Positions 2,048 through 53,572 of a DNA stretch of 53,572 bases are shown piece by piece. Below the pieces are notes generated by a model. It saw nothing but the letters and a program-made list of their open reading frames with translations, did not search any database and was not told the DNA's origin. The stretch is taken from assembly GCA_020859945.1 (NCBI GenBank), contig JAJBVG010000038.1:1-53572 (forward strand), in the 5' to 3' direction. The DNA is from Clostridiales bacterium. GTDB lineage: Bacteria > Bacillota > Clostridia > Oscillospirales > Oscillospiraceae. Both the position numbers and the translations under genes were made by a program. The first letter of the stretch is position 1. Every line of letters starts with the position of its first letter.

Positions 2048-2088
2048 GCCTTATATTTACCAATATTTAGGAGAAAAGCGTGTAAGAT

Positions 2089-2116
2089 TGTGACCGCAGG
2101 TCACGTCACGGTCACA
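2089..2116. promoter_or_regulatory. Nested dyad upstream of the second dnaK
   Basis: The outer arms TGTGACCG (2089-2096) and CGGTCACA (2109-2116) are perfectly inverted. The inner arms GTGACC (2090-2095) and GGTCAC (2099-2104) form a second perfect palindrome. It lies about 85 bp upstream of a candidate -10 element and is plausibly an operator; the regulator is unknown. Apart from the terminator, this dyad and the promoter, the 1922-2287 gap holds nothing I recognise. Confidence 0.45.
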
Positions 2117-2179
2117 GTACGCAGTGCCTCCCCGCCTGAAAACAAAAATTTCTGCAATTTTTGCTTTTTTCTCGGAATC

Positions 2180-14104: not shown

Positions 14105-14217
14105 TTACACAGGCGGCTGTTCGCGCAGCTCCATGGGCTTCACCCCTCCTCAATGAGCTGCCCCCATTGCTTGATCCCGGCTGTCGGGCCGGGGCTGTGG
14201 CTGGGCAGAAGTATCAT
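14105..14217 (-). other. Two coupled short ORFs in the operon leader
   Basis: A 25-residue ORF (14217-14140, starts MILLPSHSPG) ends in GAGGAGGGGTGA, which gives the ribosome site for a 9-residue ORF MELREQPPV (14134-14105). The arrangement looks like a translated leader. Otherwise 13976-14403 holds no gene I can support. Confidence 0.3.
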
Positions 14218-14403
14218 TATCCCTGCTGCGGGTCGTGGCCGAGTCGGTTGCGAGGCGACTGTCACAGACGGTAGGAATCGCTGCCGGATAGAATCCGGGT
14301 CACGGCGTACCGCTGATGTGGCTCGTCACAGCAGGAACGTACCTGTGTACTGATATTCAGTTGGAAAGGTGCAGGTTGTGCCTTTTTTGTTTGGCACAAG
14401 TAA

Positions 14404-20344: not shown

Positions 20345-20476
20345 ATCACCATAAAGAGTGCGCGAGGGACAAGCCCGTTGACCGCACAGCAACCTGCCGA
20401 TTGGTAAGGTGCTAAAGCTTGATTCGATGGGGTTTATAATGTTATTTCGGCACCCATCGAGGACGATGGGTGCTTT
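20345..20476 (+). promoter_or_regulatory. SAM riboswitch (S-box/SAM-I-IV-like) with terminator
   Basis: GCGAGGGACAAGCCCGTTGA, then GCAACC, then AAGGTGCTAAAGC reproduce the conserved core of the S-box superfamily. A terminator GCACCCATCG/CGATGGGTGC (20450-20459, 20464-20473) with a T-tract follows. CGATGGGG (20425-20432) can pair with the 5' terminator arm and would be the antiterminator. Known S-box logic predicts termination when S-adenosylmethionine is bound. The exact subclass needs a covariance-model search. Confidence 0.75.
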
Positions 20477-27873: not shown

Positions 27874-29454
27874 TTAGGATTTTATTTCCAGCCCGTTTTT
27901 AAACGTGAACCGAATATCGTCCTTCGAATACACAGTGGCATAATCCACCAGCGTGCACCATGCCTCCGGGTCGAATTTTGTCAGAATGGCCTTCCTTGAC
28001 CGGAGGGCCTTCTGAAAATCGGTGAGCGCCGCTCTCGAAAGTTCTTTCTGCTTAATTTGCTCGGTGACAGCGTCCAATTGTGCTTTCGTCACGTTGTACC
28101 GCTCCGTAAGAGCATCATAGCGTTGCTGGTATTCTCTCTGGTCGAGGGCATGATGGGCGTTCTCCGTTATGGCCTTCTGTACCAGTTCTGTGACAAGTGC
28201 CAGTTCATCGGACAAGCGGCCATGTTCTACGGAAAGGCTGTCAGTATCGTACACACTGGCTTTAACCAAGTCGATGTCCGCAATAATGGAGTCCCGGTTT
28301 TTCAGCAACTGATTGACTGCGGAAACGAACTTCTCCTCAATTTCTCCATCTGTCAGGTGGGGAGTGTGACATTTGGTATCCCCCTCAAATTTGTGATTGC
28401 ACTGCCAGACTACCCTTCGGTATTTGTCATTGGAGTGCCACACCTTCGAACCGTACCAACTGCCGCACTCCCCACATTTGATTTTCCCGGAAAATGTATG
28501 GATGCCGCTATGTCTGTATCTACCTGCGTTACGCTGGGCCATCTCCCGCTGCACCATCTCAAAGGTATCTGGGTCAATGATGGCCTCATGGTCACCTTCC
28601 ACATAGTACTGGGGTATTTCCCCCTCGTTGACCTTTGTTTTCTTCGTCAGAAAATCTGTGGTGAATGTTTTCTGGAGCAGGGCATCGCCTTTGTATTTTT
28701 CGTTTTGGAGTATGGACTTAACTGTAGACTGGCTCCATTTGTCTTTCCCTGCGGGGGACTTGATGCCTTCTCGTGTCAGTTGCGTGGCGATACCACTGGG
28801 CGTTTTCCCCTCCAGGAACAACTGATAGATTTTCCGGACAACTGCTGCCTGTTCCTGGTTGATTACAAGTTCCCCATTCGGGCCCCGGTCGTAGCCCAAG
28901 AACCGTTTGAACGGAACAGTTACCTTCCCGTCTGAGAACCGTTTCCGCTGGCCCCAAGTGCAGTTTTCTGAAATGGAGCGGCTCTCCTCCTGGGCAAGGC
29001 TAGACATGATGGTGATCAGCAGTTCACCCTTACCGTCAAAGGTCCAGATGTTCTCCTTCTCGAAATAACATTCTGTACCATTTTCCTTCAACTGGCGTAT
29101 GGTGGAAAGGCTGTCCACCGTGTTCCTCGCAAATCGACTGACCGACTTGGTGATAATCAGGTCTATCTTACCAGTCAGAGCGTCGGCGACCATTCGCTTG
29201 AATCCTTCCCGATGCTTGGTGCTGGTTCCCGTTATCCCTTCGTCTGTATAGACCCCCACGAACTCCCAGTCATCCCGTGCCTTGATGTAATTGGTGTAAT
29301 AATCGATTTGCGCCTCATAACTGGTGAACTGGTCATCGTGGTCAGTAGATACACGGGCGTATCCAGCAACCTTCCGCTTTGTCTGCTCTGTGATGGGCAT
29401 GGATGTAATTTGGGTGCGAGTAGCCGGTATCGTAGTTACTTTTCTTTGCGCCAT
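27874..29454 (-). CDS. Large serine recombinase 2
   Basis: 526 residues and apparently complete. The resolvase domain has VAGYARVSTDHDDQ with catalytic Ser36 and SRFARNTVD. The recombinase domain has KRFLGYDRGPNGELVI and a zinc ribbon FSGKIKCGECGSWYGSK; a coiled coil covers about 395-480. Such enzymes integrate and excise mobile DNA. The ATG overlaps the end of recombinase 1 by 19 bp, so they are made together. Paired recombinases suggest a Tn4451/TnpX-like or SCCmec CcrAB-like arrangement. Confidence 0.85.
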   Translation of the reverse strand: MAQRKVTTIPATRTQITSMPITEQTKRKVAGYARVSTDHDDQFTSYEAQIDYYTNYIKARDDWEFVGVYTDEGITGTSTKHREGFKRMVADALTGKIDLIITKSVSRFARNTVDSLSTIRQLKENGTECYFEKENIWTFDGKGELLITIMSSLAQEESRSISENCTWGQRKRFSDGKVTVPFKRFLGYDRGPNGELVINQEQAAVVRKIYQLFLEGKTPSGIATQLTREGIKSPAGKDKWSQSTVKSILQNEKYKGDALLQKTFTTDFLTKKTKVNEGEIPQYYVEGDHEAIIDPDTFEMVQREMAQRNAGRYRHSGIHTFSGKIKCGECGSWYGSKVWHSNDKYRRVVWQCNHKFEGDTKCHTPHLTDGEIEEKFVSAVNQLLKNRDSIIADIDLVKASVYDTDSLSVEHGRLSDELALVTELVQKAITENAHHALDQREYQQRYDALTERYNVTKAQLDAVTEQIKQKELSRAALTDFQKALRSRKAILTKFDPEAWCTLVDYATVYSKDDIRFTFKNGLEIKS

Positions 29455-31211
29455 GCTTTCCCACGCTCCTTCCTCAACTGTTTCATGTGTTCGCTCATCT
29501 GCTGTCTTCTTTCCGGCGGGTAGGCATCCTTGATGGATTCTTGGAATTTAGCTCTCTGCTCATCTGTCCACGGCCTACCCACGCGCTTTGGCGGCACCCA
29601 CTCACGGCTGTTCGTTGTCCCGTCTTTAAAGACGAATGTGACCTCTGATGCGGAGAGAATGTCGATGTGGTCAATCCGCTCACGGAATAATCCTTCATCG
29701 AACTCTGCTACGCCAAGTACATCCGCCGTCAACGATTTCAGTAAATCCTCACGCAGGCCGACGGTATCACAGCCATTATGCTCAGCGCATCTCCAATACC
29801 GCATCTTCCCGCCCTCGGCGTCCACCTTTTTCTGAAATGCTCCCCGGAAGTTGCAGCCGCAGTGGACGCATTTCAATTTTGCCGTAAAACAGGATGCTCC
29901 CTTCGGATTCGTACCTGTCTTTCTTCTCTGTGCTGACACTCTCGCTCGATATTCAGGAGTCCAGCAATCCTGGTGTCCTGTCGGAGTGCAATCACGCTCA
30001 GTGATCGTTCCGTCTTTCAGGTGGAACTCCAACTTATATCGCTCCGGTACGTTAATGATGTCAATTTGCTCCAGGAAAGCAGCGGAGTCAAATTCCTCCA
30101 GTCCCAGCACGTCACAACAGGCATCTATCAGCTTTTGCTGGATAATTGAGCCACCAACCGGGCAGCGTCCACCGACTTTCTTTCTTGCCCCACACATCCA
30201 GTACTCACGTGGATTTTTATCCGGTTGCTGGTTGTGGATGTAACTCACCCCGCAATAGGGGCACTTGATTTTCCCTGTAAAGCAGGTAGTGTTGAGTGCC
30301 TTATTTGCCAGAGGGCCAAGTTCTCTGCGCCGCGCCATCTCGTCCTGGACGAACTGAAAGGTCTCCATGTCGATAATCGGCTCGTGCGTGTTCTCTACAT
30401 AGTACTGTGGCAGTTCCCCGTGGTTATTCTTTTTATGTTTTGAAATGGGATCGGCAACATACTGCTTTTGAAGCAGGAGGTTCCCTGTGTAGGTAACGTT
30501 GGTGAGTATGTGGTGGATGTTGGAATCCCGCATGACACATCCGTTGATGCTGCGAATGCCCTCGGCTTCCAGTTCCCGTTCCGTCTCCAGCCGTGATTTT
30601 CCATCGAGAAAATTCTGAAAGATGCGCTTCACGATTGCCGCTTCTTCCGGTTCGACCACCAACCGGTCGTCTTTCCATCGGTAGCCCAGTATTCGAAAGT
30701 GGCCGTTTGGGATGCCTTCCTGCATCCGCTTTCGGATGCCCCACTTTACATTGTTGCTGATGCTGATAGACTCCTCCTGGGCAAAGGATGCCAGGAGCGT
30801 CAGCATGACCTCACCGTCTCCGGACAAAGAGTGGATGTTCTCCTTTTCAAACCACACCTCAATGCCAAGTTCCTTTAAGTGCCTGACCGTCTCCAGCAGG
30901 TCAAGAGTATTCCGTGCGAACCGGGAGATGGACTTGGTCAGAATGATGTCAATCAGTCCGGCCTCGCAGTCCGCTAGCATCTGTTGGAATTCTGCTCGGT
31001 CAGTTTTGGTTCCGGTTATGCCTTCATCGGCGTACACGCCAGCGTATTCCCACTCCGGGTTCTTCTGAATCAACTCGCTGTAGTAACTGATTTGAGCAGA
31101 GAGGGAATGGTGGAGCCGCTCACTTTCCACTGAAACTCTGGCGTAAGCAGCGACCTTCTTTCGCGCCGGTATGGCCGGTATCTGCGGCTCGATTTTCGTT
31201 ATTTTCTTCAA
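29436..31211 (-). CDS. Large serine recombinase 1 with two zinc ribbons
   Basis: 591 residues. Resolvase motif VAAYARVSVESERL with Ser27, GITGTKTDRAEFQQML and SRFARNTLD. Recombinase domain HFRILGYRWKDDRL. The first zinc ribbon is FTGKIKCPYCGVSYIHN; a second one, FTAKLKCVHCGCNFRG, lies near residue 450, so the C-terminal part is duplicated. The start is a TTG at 31211 after AAGGTGAT. It lies in one operon with the zinc-finger and SHOCT-like genes before it. Confidence 0.8.
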   Translation of the reverse strand: MKKITKIEPQIPAIPARKKVAAYARVSVESERLHHSLSAQISYYSELIQKNPEWEYAGVYADEGITGTKTDRAEFQQMLADCEAGLIDIILTKSISRFARNTLDLLETVRHLKELGIEVWFEKENIHSLSGDGEVMLTLLASFAQEESISISNNVKWGIRKRMQEGIPNGHFRILGYRWKDDRLVVEPEEAAIVKRIFQNFLDGKSRLETERELEAEGIRSINGCVMRDSNIHHILTNVTYTGNLLLQKQYVADPISKHKKNNHGELPQYYVENTHEPIIDMETFQFVQDEMARRRELGPLANKALNTTCFTGKIKCPYCGVSYIHNQQPDKNPREYWMCGARKKVGGRCPVGGSIIQQKLIDACCDVLGLEEFDSAAFLEQIDIINVPERYKLEFHLKDGTITERDCTPTGHQDCWTPEYRARVSAQRRKTGTNPKGASCFTAKLKCVHCGCNFRGAFQKKVDAEGGKMRYWRCAEHNGCDTVGLREDLLKSLTADVLGVAEFDEGLFRERIDHIDILSASEVTFVFKDGTTNSREWVPPKRVGRPWTDEQRAKFQESIKDAYPPERRQQMSEHMKQLRKERGKAWRKEK

Positions 31212-31259
31212 AGTATCACCTTCTTTCAGTAGAATTAATCACTCTAAAAGGCTGTAAAG

Positions 31260-31430
31260 TCAACGGTTTTCTGAAAATAATGTACCCAAAACCGGCTGGT
31301 ATTTTTCGAGCATGATTGTATCAATTTTTGCGTAATCCTCCTGCGTAATTTTGCCTTCTTCAAGCATCTGACGAAAGCACAGCATGGACGCCTGGTAGTT
31401 CTTCTCTGCTTCAAACTGTTTTTCATCCAT
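31260..31430 (-). CDS. SHOCT-like small protein
   Basis: 56 residues: MDEKQFEAEKNYQASMLCFR, then QMLEEGKITQEDYAKIDTIM. The short C-terminal helical hairpin resembles SHOCT domains and is common beside serine recombinases in Clostridia. The ATG at 31430 overlaps the end of the upstream gene by 8 bp, with GGAGG before it. Confidence 0.6.
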   Translation of the reverse strand: MDEKQFEAEKNYQASMLCFRQMLEEGKITQEDYAKIDTIMLEKYQPVLGTLFSENR

Positions 31431-49571: not shown

Positions 49572-51164
49572 TCAGATAAACAGAATGCCTCTGTGGTTGT
49601 ATATGGAATCATCCGGCTCTGCGCCGCAGCGAATCGCCCTGTCCAGAGCCATGACGGTGGCTACCGCGCCGTCTATCTTCTCTGTGGATTTCTCCTTGTC
49701 CATTTTGATGTTGCCAGCCGGGTCGGTGCGGATGAAGATGTTGTCCATGTTCCAGCGCAGGATGGGATGCCCACCGTGGGCAATCTTCTGTTCCAGCACC
49801 AGCTTCATCAGTTCCTTGGTGGGCGGAGACATATCCTTGAACCCCTGCCCGAAGGGGACCACGGTGAAGCCCATGCCCTCCAGATTCTGCACCATCTGCA
49901 CGGCACCCCATCTGTCAAAGGCGATCTCACGGATGTTGTACCGCTCTCCCAGTTTTTCGATGAAGTTTTCGATGTAGCCGTAGTGGACTACGTTGCCTTC
50001 AGTAGTCTGGAGGATGCCCTGGTGTTCCCAGACATCGTAGGGGACGTGGTCTCGGTTGACCCGCAGCGTTACGTTGTCTTCCGGTATCCAGAAATAGGGC
50101 AGTACCACGTACTTTTCGCCCTCGTCCTTGGGTGGGAACACCAACACAAAGGCAGTCATATCCGTGGTCTGGGACAAGTCCAGGCCGCCATAGCAGACGC
50201 GCCCTTCCAGTTCGTCCTCGTCCACGGGAAAAGCACAGGCGTCCCACTTCTCCATCGGCATCCAGCGGACGGACTGTTTCACCCACTGGTCTAGTCGAAG
50301 CTGACGGAAGGAGTTCTCCTCGGCGGGGTTCTGCTTTGCGGATTCACAGGCCGCCTGCACCTTGTCTATGGTGATGGTGTACCCCAGCGAGGGGTTGGCC
50401 TTTTTCCACACCTCCGGGTCGGTCCAGTCATCGTCCATGTCGGCGCCGTAGATGACGGGGTAGAAGGTGGGGTCTATCTTCCTGCCCTCGATGATGTCTT
50501 TTGCCTTCTGGTGCAGTTCGTAGCAGATGGAGTTGGTGTCCGTTCCCGCCGTGGTGATAAGGAAATACAGCGGCTGCTCTCTGGCATCGCCAGAGCCTTT
50601 GGTTAGCACATCGTACAGTTTCCGGTTGGGCCGTGCGTGGACCTCGTCCAGCACAAGACCGGAGACGTTCAGGCCGTGCTTGGTTCCGACTTCTGCGGAC
50701 AGCACCTGATAGAAACCGTTGTTTTCAAAATTGCGGATGCGCTTGTTCGCCGTCAGTATCTTGGAGCGCCGGTTCAGCGCCGGGGACAACTGCACCATCT
50801 GGCTGGCCACATCAAAGACGATTCCGGCCTGCTGGCGGTCGGCGGCGGCACCGTAAACCTCTGCGGACGGTTCCCCATCTCCGAAGAGAAGGTACAGAGC
50901 GATGGCAGCAGCAAGTTCGCTTTTGCCGTTCTTCTTGGAAATTTCTACATATGCAGTGTTAAACTGGCGTTTTCCGTTGGGTTTCAGGACACCAAAGATG
51001 TCCCGGACGATTTGTTCCTGCCAGGGGAGCAGATGGAACCGCTGTCCATACCATCTTCCCTTGGTGTGGCAGAGGCATTCAATGAAGCTGACGACATAGT
51101 TTGCCATATCCTCGTCATAGTAGGAGTTCTTTGCCATGAATCTGGTCGGTGTGTAATTCTCCAC
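49572..51164 (-). CDS. Terminase large subunit
   Basis: 530 residues. The ATPase part has RFHLLPWQEQIVRDIFG, the P-loop-like YVEISKKNGKSELAAAIAL and Walker B LVLDEVHARPN. The nuclease part has CYGGLDLSQTTDMTAFVLVF and IREIAFDRWGAVQM with the metal-binding acidic residues. The GTG start at 51164 follows GGAGGGAGG; the frame opens earlier, but not with terminase sequence. No small terminase or HNH gene lies upstream, so the packaging module is incomplete here. Confidence 0.9.
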   Translation of the reverse strand: MENYTPTRFMAKNSYYDEDMANYVVSFIECLCHTKGRWYGQRFHLLPWQEQIVRDIFGVLKPNGKRQFNTAYVEISKKNGKSELAAAIALYLLFGDGEPSAEVYGAAADRQQAGIVFDVASQMVQLSPALNRRSKILTANKRIRNFENNGFYQVLSAEVGTKHGLNVSGLVLDEVHARPNRKLYDVLTKGSGDAREQPLYFLITTAGTDTNSICYELHQKAKDIIEGRKIDPTFYPVIYGADMDDDWTDPEVWKKANPSLGYTITIDKVQAACESAKQNPAEENSFRQLRLDQWVKQSVRWMPMEKWDACAFPVDEDELEGRVCYGGLDLSQTTDMTAFVLVFPPKDEGEKYVVLPYFWIPEDNVTLRVNRDHVPYDVWEHQGILQTTEGNVVHYGYIENFIEKLGERYNIREIAFDRWGAVQMVQNLEGMGFTVVPFGQGFKDMSPPTKELMKLVLEQKIAHGGHPILRWNMDNIFIRTDPAGNIKMDKEKSTEKIDGAVATVMALDRAIRCGAEPDDSIYNHRGILFI

Positions 51165-51193
51165 TGTGTTCCCTCCCTCCGTTTTATGGCATG

Positions 51194-51216
51194 GAAAAAG
51201 CCGCTTCTCAGCGGCT
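51194..51216 (-). terminator. Small terminator before the terminase gene
   Basis: AGCCGCT/AGCGGCT, a 7-bp stem; read leftward it ends in TTTTT. It would stop transcripts entering from the right. Confidence 0.5.
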
Positions 51217-51225
51217 CCAAAATTT

Positions 51226-51241
51226 ATGGTGAACAAGCAAC
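51226..51241 (-). repeat. Partial copy of the repeated leader
   Basis: Read leftward, GGCTCCGTTGCTTGTT differs by one base from the upstream part of the leader copies at 52411-52425 and 52811-52824. It suggests that the terminase region was once joined to the leader module. Confidence 0.4.
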
Positions 51242-51299
51242 GGAGCCAGCCTGATAAATGACTGGTTCTGTCGACTTTTAACTTTCGCACTTTAAATTC

Positions 51300-51328
51300 T
51301 TGCAGAATAATGAAATGTATGCTAATAT
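51300..51328 (+). promoter_or_regulatory. Promoter of the YbaK-like gene
   Basis: TTGCAG (51300-51305), a 17-bp spacer and TAATAT (51323-51328). Confidence 0.6.
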
Positions 51329-51367
51329 TTTAAATTTAGAGAGTAAAAATTAAAGGAGACGTTTGAA

Positions 51368-51832
51368 ATGTCCGTAGACAAGGTAAAAGCATATTTTGCG
51401 CAGTATGGGATGGAAGAGCGCGTGATGGAGATGGAGCATTCCAGCGCGACGGTGGAACTGGCTGCGGAGGCGCTGGGCTGTGAGCCCTGTCGGATTGCCA
51501 AGACAATGTCGTTCTTACAGGGAGACAGGGCAATCCTGATCGTGGCGGCAGGCGACGCGAGGGTGGATAATAAGAAGTACAAGGCGCAGTTCCATACAAA
51601 GGCGAAGATGATTCCCCGCGATGATGTGGAGGAATGGATCGGCCACGCGCCGGGCGGCGTCTGTCCCTTCGCAATCAGGCAGGGTGTGGCCGTTTATCTC
51701 GATGAATCGCTGAAACGCTTTGATATCGTCTATCCGGCGGCAGGCAGCGGCAACAGCGCCATCGGGCTGAACCTCACGGAGTTGGAGCAGTATTCGGGCG
51801 CTGTCGGCTGGATTGACGTCTGTCGGTATTGA
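51368..51832 (+). CDS. YbaK/EbsC family aminoacyl-tRNA deacylase
   Basis: 154 residues. SSATVELAAEALGCEPCRIA and AKTMSFLQGDRAILIVAAGD, then DNKKYKAQFHTKAKMI and APGGVCPFAI, match the YbaK/ProX editing fold. It hydrolyses mischarged tRNA, for example Cys- or Ala-tRNAPro. AAAGGAG precedes the ATG. It is a single gene with its own promoter on the strand opposite to both neighbours, so it looks like an insertion between phage genes and the leader module. Confidence 0.85.
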   Translation: MSVDKVKAYFAQYGMEERVMEMEHSSATVELAAEALGCEPCRIAKTMSFLQGDRAILIVAAGDARVDNKKYKAQFHTKAKMIPRDDVEEWIGHAPGGVCPFAIRQGVAVYLDESLKRFDIVYPAAGSGNSAIGLNLTELEQYSGAVGWIDVCRY

Positions 51833-51934
51833 AACGTTTACCCATTCGTAAAAATGCTATGGCTTAGGCATGATGTCAATATCTTTCCTGCTGAGCAGAA
51901 ATAGCCTTTAGGCTCCGTCCCCTCGTAAATCGTT

Positions 51935-52267
51935 TTACGCTCTTGCGACATCCGCGAACCAGAATGCTTCCGGATGGCTGATGCCTGTGGCTTTCTCCGG
52001 CACCATGCGCTCCTCGTCAATGTAGTGCAGCCCTTTGCCGACCTTGATGAATTTCACATCTTCAAAGCCTGCGAAGTTCAGCCTGTAGACGCGGGCTGTG
52101 CGGCTCTCGCCATCGTAGCTCTTGCCGTCCCAGTCGTTGAAGGTGAAGGTAATCTTCTCCTTCGTCCTGGTGAAGTAGTGTTCAAAATCGTCTCGCGGCA
52201 TCGTGGTGTTGCCGTTCATCAGGCAGAAGTTGTTGCGCTGGCTGTAAATCTCGTTGTTGATTTTCAT
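51935..52267 (-). CDS. Hypothetical protein behind leader copy 1
   Basis: 110 residues. MKINNEIYSQRNNFCLMNGN, then DDFEHYFTRTKEKITFTFND and RVYRLNFAGFEDVKFIKVGK. It is likely a mixed alpha/beta cytoplasmic protein; no known family. The ribosome site GGAGGA is the 3' end of the repeated leader. The region 51838-51934 behind it has no gene. Confidence 0.55.
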   Translation of the reverse strand: MKINNEIYSQRNNFCLMNGNTTMPRDDFEHYFTRTKEKITFTFNDWDGKSYDGESRTARVYRLNFAGFEDVKFIKVGKGLHYIDEERMVPEKATGISHPEAFWFADVARA

Positions 52268-52276
52268 GGTGTTTTT

Positions 52277-52437
52277 CCTCCGTTTTGTTTGGTTTTCCCT
52301 TTCGGTGAGTGTATATTCGCTCTGAATCGGAGAAATAGCAAGTCAATTCTGAGGGATATAATACACAAATAAACAGGAGGATTTTTGTCGCTTATACACC
52401 ATGCCGGACAACGAGCAACGGAGCCTTTCGGCTCCGT
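52277..52437 (-). promoter_or_regulatory. Repeated structured leader, copy 1
   Basis: Read leftward it has a GAAA-loop hairpin ACGGAGCC/GGCTCCGT (52418-52437), then GGTGTATA that can pair with TATACACTCACC further on. Between these lie AATCCTCC and TTTCTCCG, both complementary to the ribosome site CGGAGGA at its 3' end. The layout suggests control of translation by alternative pairing. The second anti-SD is mutated in this copy. Confidence 0.6.
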
Positions 52438-52458
52438 CCCTGTGTAGTCTGGTTCGTT

Positions 52459-52668
52459 TTAAGCCTTCTTCATGGCTTTGGCAAGGTCAGCGGCAACCTG
52501 GAACTTGTTGCCGTAGATTCGGAAGGTCTCCACGTCCTCCCAGCAGTTGAGGTGCAAGGCAGTGAGGAGGATGTCGTAGCAAGTGGAACTGTAGGCCAAC
52601 GCCTCGGCCTCTTTGCGCGTAAGGGTGATCTCGTAGGTGTTCATGTTCTTGATGTACTTCGCTGTCAT
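52459..52668 (-). CDS. Hypothetical protein behind leader copy 2
   Basis: 69 residues: MTAKYIKNMNTYEITLTRKE, then AEALAYSSTCYDILLTALHL. The ATG at 52668 follows the leader ribosome site CGGAGGAACC. It resembles the many small genes on clostridial conjugative elements; no function is known. Confidence 0.6.
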   Translation of the reverse strand: MTAKYIKNMNTYEITLTRKEAEALAYSSTCYDILLTALHLNCWEDVETFRIYGNKFQVAADLAKAMKKA

Positions 52669-52676
52669 TTTCGGTT

Positions 52677-52836
52677 CCTCCGTTTTGTTTGTTTTCCCTT
52701 TCGGTGAGTGTATATTCGCTCTAAATCGGAGGAATAGCAAGCTAATTCTGAGGAATAATTTATACAAATAAATAGGAGGATTTTTGTCACTTATACACCA
52801 TGCCTGGCAACGAGCAACGGAGCCTTTCGGCTCCGT
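52677..52836 (-). promoter_or_regulatory. Repeated structured leader, copy 2
   Basis: Same parts as copy 1: GAAA-loop hairpin (52817-52836), GGTGTATA/TATACACTCACC, AATCCTCC, TTCCTCCG and the CGGAGGA ribosome site. Most differences lie in the A/T-rich middle. Confidence 0.6.
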
Positions 52837-52853
52837 CTCCTGCCTGGTCATCG

Positions 52854-53036
52854 TCAGGAAAACTGGATGTTCAGCATTCCTTTGGTTCCGAGGAAGAAGT
52901 CCAGTTCCTCGTTCGGGTCTTCCCGGAACCCTTCTTTTGCGCAGTCAGTTATCCGTTTGACCCGGTCGGCTCCCAGCATCTCGGTGAGTTTCTTTTTGGT
53001 GATTTTCTTGCCGTTCAGGTAGTAGTTGGTTCTCAT
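52854..53036 (-). CDS. Hypothetical protein behind leader copy 3
   Basis: 60 residues: MRTNYYLNGKKITKKKLTEM, then LGADRVKRITDCAKEGFRED. Basic at the N terminus, acidic after that; no recognised family. It uses the ribosome site CGGAGGATT of leader copy 3. Confidence 0.6.
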   Translation of the reverse strand: MRTNYYLNGKKITKKKLTEMLGADRVKRITDCAKEGFREDPNEELDFFLGTKGMLNIQFS

Positions 53037-53044
53037 GGTGTAAT

Positions 53045-53184
53045 CCTCCGTTTTGTGTTGGTTTTCCCTTTCGGTGAGTGTATATTCGCTCTGAATCGGA
53101 GGAATAGCAAGTTAATTATGAGGAATATACTACACAAATAAATCGGAGGATTTTTGCCATTTATACACCATGCCGGACAACGAG
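53045..53184 (-). promoter_or_regulatory. Repeated structured leader, copy 3
   Basis: GGTGTATA/TATACACTCACC and both anti-SD segments are present. AATCCTCCG matches CGGAGGATT over nine bases here. The upstream hairpin is replaced by CCCGGC/GCCGGG (53191-53206). Confidence 0.6.
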
Positions 53185-53229
53185 AGAGGACCCGGCAGGT
53201 GCCGGGCTTCTCGGAGGGAGGGCTTTCCC

Positions 53230-53490
53230 TCAAAGGAAAACCCTCATGGTCAAGCCGACTTCGTTCAGAAGTTCTTCGAGGCTCTTGTAGCGGTATTCTT
53301 CATCGTAGCTTTCTTCCTCTTCCTCCTCGTCGGGGTCTTCTTCGGGGAAGGGGTCGTAGTTCCATCCGTTCTCCTTGTAAATCGCCAAGCGGATGCGGTT
53401 GATGTCGTCCCAGTCGAGTTCGTAGTCTTCTTCAAGTTCCGCGATGCGGCTGTCGATGATGTCCTCGATTTCGATGTGGTTCTTTTTCAT
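53230..53490 (-). CDS. Acidic hypothetical protein behind leader copy 4
   Basis: 86 residues: KKNHIEIEDIIDSRIAELEE, then DWDDINRIRLAIYKENGWNY, an EEDPDEEEEEE stretch, and SLEELLNEVGLTMRVFL. Strongly acidic, as in phage DNA-mimic or antirestriction proteins, but no such family can be claimed. ATG at 53490. Confidence 0.6.
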   Translation of the reverse strand: MKKNHIEIEDIIDSRIAELEEDYELDWDDINRIRLAIYKENGWNYDPFPEEDPDEEEEEESYDEEYRYKSLEELLNEVGLTMRVFL

Positions 53491-53498
53491 GGTGTTTT

Positions 53499-53572
53499 CC
53501 TCCGTTTTGTGTGTTTTCCTTTCGGTGAGTGTATATTCGCTCTGAATCGGAGGAATAGCAAGTTAATTCTGA
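53499..53572 (-). promoter_or_regulatory. Repeated structured leader, copy 4 (cut by window end)
   Basis: The 3' half of the same leader (ribosome site, TATACACTCACC, TTCCTCCG) is visible. The rest lies outside the window. Confidence 0.55.

Follow-up and report, generated by a model that had tools for sequence, protein, structure and literature searches.

A family of promoter-like units in phages of Bacillota with upstream arms that may hide the ribosome-binding sites of the genes behind them

Introduction

Genes e, soc, 49 and I-TevI of phage T4 carry a late promoter that overlaps a hairpin hiding the ribosome-binding site (RBS). Longer transcripts of these genes conceal the RBS, and transcripts begun at the promoter lack the pairing arm, according to PMC3014915. 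Ltr of phi13 and Alt of TP901-1 are small phage regulators, described together with repeats upstream of a weak late promoter (PMC13123087, likewise in excerpt). In the extracts returned by a search of open-licence PMC literature, no description of a promoter-embedded RBS-hiding mechanism for phages of Bacillota was found.

Here we analyze a window of 53,572 nt, the left part of a contig (C84) from a clostridial genome of 2.67 Mb. Read in the direction of transcription, the phage in this window encodes a helicase, a DUF1492 protein, an HNH protein, the small terminase, an S-adenosylmethionine synthetase-like protein and two DNA methylases, followed by a region with repeated units and the large terminase. 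A preliminary description had noticed these units as structured leaders in front of small genes. We propose that they belong to a promoter family, some members of which may also keep their genes silent in RNA that arrives from upstream.

Results

Repeated units in front of small genes

Units of up to ~155 nt lie on the minus strand ahead of four different small open reading frames (ORFs) between 51.9 and 53.6 kb. With the third unit as query, the other three showed 89-90% identity (E 4e-51, 4e-45 and 3e-31). Each of the four ORFs has a GGAGG 8-9 nt 5′ of its ATG, and the fourth unit is truncated at the window end. The near identity of the units, their placement before different genes and their ending in the gene's own ribosome site were thus described correctly from the start. 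The ORFs, all on the minus strand, encode 110 aa (51935-52267), 69 aa (52459-52668), 60 aa (52854-53036) and 86 aa (53230-53490). None of them matches a Pfam family at E 0.01, and three of the four, among them the 110-aa ORF, were searched against PHROGs with no match. Relatives of the 60-aa protein in two phages (L020 and L170), and a relative of the 86-aa protein in a third (L011), stand behind the same type of promoter-like unit.

Extension of the locus to the right, suggested in the preliminary description, yielded further copies. The window end is followed by 100 N and then by a near-identical unit (C84:53673-53750), whose gene is lost in the gap. Diverged copies occur farther right ahead of an amidoligase gene and of a gene for a 239-aa protein, and one diverged copy on the opposite strand precedes a 56-aa ORF.

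Near-identical GGAGCC..GGCTCC hairpins without a clear T run lie between the cassettes (51903-51923, 52422-52442 and 52821-52841). A terminator scan found none among the units, and these hairpins are not typical terminators. What had been taken for a 16-nt scrap of the unit beside the terminase is instead ~12 nt of this hairpin (AGCAACGGAGCC), as its letters read. A gene with an aminoacyl-tRNA editing domain (PF04073, 51368-51832, plus strand) separates the last cassette from the terminase and is opposed to the direction of the array. Elsewhere in the window, Rfam recognizes a SAM riboswitch (RF00162, 56.5 bits, 20346-20433, plus strand) and a pemK RNA motif (RF02913, 39.2 bits, 14131-14220, minus strand).

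A two-box core at constant spacing

The members of the family have a common layout: a -35-like box (TTGCTA, TTGATA, TGGATA or TTGACT), a 17-nt spacer ending in TTTAGAG, an AT-rich -10-like box (forms GAATAT, GATATA and TAATAT), a leader of ~30 nt and the RBS. Ahead of the 110-aa ORF, on the minus strand, the -35-like box TTGCTA, recognized by its family and its 17-nt spacing, lies at 52336-52341, the spacer at 52319-52335 and the -10-like box GAATAT at 52313-52318, with the start predicted 6-8 nt 3′ of this box. The Shine-Dalgarno sequence GGAGG follows at 52277-52281. Cores of the same kind, with CCTCCG in the spacer, precede the 69-aa ORF (52712-52740; Shine-Dalgarno GGAGG at 52677-52681) and the 60-aa ORF (53082-53110; GGAGG at 53045-53049). 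The core of the 86-aa ORF lies at 53533-53561, its upstream part lost at the window end, with GGAGG at 53499-53503. All four Shine-Dalgarno sequences were read directly from the DNA. The core recurs at 31235-31263 (minus strand; TTGACT, 17 nt, GATTAA), ahead of a serine recombinase gene at 29436-31211. This gene is the first of two adjoining large serine recombinase genes (27874-31211, minus strand).

Because the pattern used to collect leaders itself fixes the 17-nt core, we take the spacing only from a set gathered by protein homology, the regions upstream of homologues of the 239-aa protein (the best 80 of 484 relatives; 79 used, 72 distinct). The right box was found in 66 of the 72 distinct regions, compared with 2 of 68 control stretches farther upstream. 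Although distances of 8-30 nt were permitted, the best left box was exactly 17 nt away in 64 of these 66 regions. Counting one right-box form only, which misses the GAATATG form, gave 43 regions at 17 nt, 8 at other spacings and 21 of 72 boxless.

Two boxes at this fixed spacing make the core read as a promoter, with a predicted start downstream of both anti-Shine-Dalgarno (anti-SD) segments of the unit. We infer from this fixed architecture that the units belong to a family of phage promoters. By the rules for ordinary sigma-A promoters the spacing fits, and the hexamers fall below 9 of 12 matches; the GATATA form is without the usual last T of a -10 box. Requiring at least 9 of 12 matches, a sigma-70 scan of 51100-53572 missed every unit and called one site elsewhere, compared with 2.1 in shuffled sequence. 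Hexamers this weak by sigma-70 standards, which escape the scan, make an activator or an altered polymerase likely.

A Heliusvirales-like sub-type carries in addition an inverted motif upstream, roughly ACACAA ... TTTGTGTAnTTTAT, whose near arm keeps a constant distance to the -35 box. In the window this proximal dyad arm, TTTGTGTATTATAT in the consensus of 57 leaders, lies at 52356-52369 (minus strand). Three divergent pairs of copies have one dyad in common (in L011 and L170 with the strict pattern, and L009 4716/4787), an arrangement that suits a DNA operator rather than an RNA element. In L011 (~2074-2150, plus strand) no ORF follows a copy of the core; a strong hairpin resembling a terminator, with a T run, comes within ~30 nt instead, and the copy may thus serve a small RNA.

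A candidate activator is the sigma-region-4-like protein of the phrog_36/DUF1492 type, encoded ~5 kb upstream of the first copy. The window phage has a DUF1492/Sigma70_r4 match, as expected for a small regulator of the Ltr/RinA/ArpU type in the same phage; phrog_36 was found in 29 of 31 records and DUF1492 in 20 of 31. This association is not specific, as each of the 14 control genomes also gives weak phrog_36 matches at E 0.01. The host's own genome has a second phrog_36 match, on a contig (C56) that holds no unit copy, and a search of solved structures with the regulator gave no match (best E 0.1).

Distribution among phages and genomes

A blastn search with one unit matched 22 of 50,697 phage records at 46 places. 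Of these records 14 were examined: 13 are labeled Ca. Heliusvirales (human faeces) and one is Erysipelothrix phage phi1605. A plasmid origin was also considered and rejected, there being no unit match in PLSDB. An HMM search returned 51 sites in 18 loci, and the core CTTGCTATT-N7-TTTAGAG-YGA.. occurred in at least 120 stretches of IMG/VR and at least 118 of GTDB genomes. The titles of the 80 genome loci among the matches listed are mostly of Bacillota, and at least 6 of these 80 are metagenome bins labeled otherwise (Bacteroidales, Dysgonamonadaceae, Desulfobulbaceae, Micrarchaeota). The strict window-type core pattern gave no stretch in viral and genome contigs. Within the host's genus, 12 of 32 genomes had a match, one of them (10% contamination) with 55. 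The promoter-like family occurs in many phages, chiefly of Bacillota.

A sequence-only model, applied to whole records, found 1-6 copies in each of the 23 records given (out of 31 used elsewhere), a presence that holds by construction, as many of these records supplied the model. The copies cluster ahead of the terminase, often with one more at the far end. They precede co-oriented genes between methyltransferase and terminase, and also recombinase genes; of five far copies examined, four stand directly 5′ of genes annotated as DNA invertase or integrase and one 5′ of an unannotated ORF. Because copies also stand before recombinase genes, the putative promoters need not be late.

Arms that covary with the ribosome-binding site

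The spacers of the window contain CTCCG or CCTCCG, complementary to the CGGAGG of the RBS (for the 110-aa ORF, CTCCG at 52328-52332), and a second anti-SD segment, AATCCTCC, lies farther upstream (52376-52383, minus strand), where it pairs with the RBS in the predicted fold of read-through RNA. Leaders were collected with a pattern of the fixed 17-nt core plus an RBS and a start within 75 nt, leaving out sites near N, near ends or without an RBS. In a smaller set, spacer and RBS could form at least 6 bp in 39 of 248 leaders, compared with 13.6 (sd 3.2) after shuffling, a count reached in 0 of 300 shuffles. The enlarged set holds at least 630 distinct sites in 623 loci, or 228 leaders after de-duplication, which are still related by descent; the shuffles ignore this kinship except in the one-per-family draws described below. 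An upstream arm pairing with the leader's own RBS over at least 8 bp, wherever it lay, was present in 28 of the 228 (4.9 with shuffled partners, 0/200 shuffles) and one of at least 7 bp in 50 (16.5, 0/200), leaving 178 leaders without a 7-bp arm.

The positional profile of RBS complementarity over the 228 leaders peaks in the spacer (z 7.6). Lesser peaks occur at -16 to -6 (z 4.6) and at -44 to -26 (z ~4), the region of AATCCTCC; values elsewhere are smaller (the highest, z 3.0, at -12 to -2), and a weak excess is found also 3′ of the predicted start (z 2.5 at +28 to +38). A lack of signal within the conserved core proves little, since a conserved core cannot covary. Controls with direct, mirror and parallel-complement matching stayed between z -0.2 and 0.6 when the upstream stretch was taken as a whole, and the parallel-complement control gave z 2.2 in the spacer alone. 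Gene families were built by single linkage, and one of them holds 404 of the 630 sites. With one site per family (61 families), the mean stem was reached in 0 of 200 shuffles in each of five draws, and the count of 6-bp stems in 0, 0, 5, 0 and 0 of 200.

The pairs of arm and RBS are of diverse, independent types, such as CTGTGTTT/AAACACAG, CTGTACTTT/AAAGTACAG, CCTCCATTC/GAATGGAGG and TCCCCTTT/AAAGGGGA, and the spacer stems enclose loops of 22 to 50 nt while the box spacing stays constant. Spacer covariation is weaker in the window's own sub-type (57 leaders with CCGAAAGG), where the mean stem is 4.42 versus 4.11 (observed value reached in 1/300 shuffles) and stems of at least 7 bp number 4 versus 2.3 (46/300). 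The effect is stronger outside this sub-type, with 16 such stems versus 2.4. Thus the anti-SD segments of the preliminary description exist and belong to a pairing that covaries over the 228 leaders, although less clearly within the sub-type of the window. Arms of at least 7 bp showed no clear excess in leaders with a co-oriented upstream frame (32/113 versus 8/44). The covariation argues for selection on RBS hiding in part of the leaders and not in every copy. A second class of arm lies just 5′ of the -35 box and pairs with the stretch after the Shine-Dalgarno sequence, for example GTGCGAAAA/TTTTCGCAC; it was seen in five phage loci (L025 4802, L312, L313, L326 and L330), and both sides change between phages.

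Folding predicts a difference between read-through and own transcripts. Mean predicted RBS exposure (n=225) is 0.328 in read-through RNA and 0.637 in the predicted own transcript. Swapping upstream regions among sites gives 0.384 (sd 0.012, 12 swaps), so that the shift relative to read-through is modest. The RBS is hidden in 107 of 225 read-through RNAs, in 88.3 with swapped upstreams (range 82-102) and in 10 of the own transcripts. The three complete window units have their Shine-Dalgarno region buried in the predicted folds of read-through RNA, and their own transcripts are nearly unfolded; the gain of these read-through folds over shuffles is no more than moderate (z -1.74, -2.15 and -0.88). 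Covariation and an exposure below that of swapped upstreams together point to an RBS-hiding helix in the read-through RNA of a subset of leaders.

Discussion

The best model, by analogy, is that the units work like the promoter-embedded RBS hairpins of T4, and we regard a promoter family with an RBS-hiding arm as the probable explanation. A sizeable minority of copies carry, ahead of the expected start, an antisense copy of the RBS region of their own gene, most often in the variable part of the spacer itself. RNA entering from upstream genes would carry this arm, so that the RBS is hidden and the gene probably remains untranslated. RNA begun at the unit's promoter would lack the arm, leaving the RBS free for translation. 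The start between the 5′ arm and the RBS is predicted from the two boxes at 17 nt. Such a start, downstream of the anti-SD segments, had been named as evidence against a switch; it would speak against one in the promoter's own RNA, and it is what a T4-type silencer of read-through RNA needs. Each small gene or recombinase gene would in this way be insulated from upstream transcription and tied to its own promoter.

A simpler reading, raised as the alternative in the preliminary description, is that the units are solely duplicates of an activator-dependent promoter and that the anti-SD matches of the window arose by chance and were copied with the unit. Its promoter part stands, as the two-box core at a fixed 17 nt reads as a promoter. 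The window copies are so alike that their anti-SD matches are not independent, and most leaders have no long arm. We nevertheless consider duplication alone rather unlikely, given the covariation over 228 de-duplicated leaders and 61 gene families. It is less probable again that the units form a cis-acting RNA switch in their own transcript, with the true promoter farther upstream and the core exposed as the loop of a hairpin that hides the RBS and binds a protein or ligand. The high conservation of the loop side of the core, and the one register (N7-TTT with AAA-N7′) shared by some of the spacer stems, would fit such a switch. However, many leaders keep the core without a stem, and the arms lie at differing places (-41, -12, +10) and close no common loop, which makes binding to a loop less likely. 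Divergent copies with a common dyad also argue against a switch, and an upstream stop codon lies a median of 40 nt before the core (113 sites with a same-strand frame), leaving little room for another promoter.

The preliminary description had suggested a riboswitch, a thermosensor or competing helices, with a long-range helix of GGTGTATA and TATACACTCACC competing with the anti-SD helices. Both strings are present in the window units, and one window fold uses part of the region. Their pairing, however, is no better than with shuffled partners in 57 related leaders (at least 6 bp in 5 versus 5.1; mean 4.00 versus 4.00), and we regard this long-range switch as very improbable. A new structured cis-regulatory RNA was rejected on the same lack of excess and because RNAalifold placed 0 pairs in the conserved core of 33 sequences, a result that also weighs against the loop-bound switch. 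Known riboswitches and other Rfam families were likewise rejected: searches of 51000-53572 at gathering and permissive thresholds gave just two chance matches far below gathering scores, which counts against the loop-bound switch too.

If the promoter family does carry RBS-hiding arms, this would explain how packed phage genes with one promoter type escape translation from upstream transcripts, and would supply a sequence rule for spotting genes that stay silent until their own promoter fires. It would extend the T4-type mechanism to common gut phages and offer compact insulated promoter-RBS parts. More tentatively, with the chances a little short of even, the spacer, free of constraint by RNA polymerase, may repeatedly have evolved into an antisense of the RBS behind it. 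A promoter class of Bacillota phages would then double as a translational insulator for dozens of small genes and recombinases, a general and portable design rule beyond T4.

Compared with known systems, the units resemble the cis-regulatory RNAs of Rfam (riboswitches, thermosensors) in sequestering the RBS within a leader, and differ from them in having no Rfam match over the region and no conserved structure in the core. With the Ltr, RinA and Alt systems, as far as the excerpt of PMC13123087 describes them, they share a small phage regulator encoded before the region that it possibly controls, and repeats upstream of a weak promoter. Those cases have one promoter, one long late transcript and direct repeats, whereas each phage here has several putative promoters, one sub-type shows an inverted dyad, and recombinase genes too have copies ahead of them. 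The T4 genes (PMC3014915) are similar in the position of the 5′ arm of the helix that hides the RBS, within the promoter (here a predicted one) or ahead of it. Unlike in T4, the arrangement is known here from sequence alone, the phages are not T4-like, the boxes are others, with no gp55-type TATAAATA promoter, and many genes per phage are served by one promoter family with arms that differ from gene to gene.
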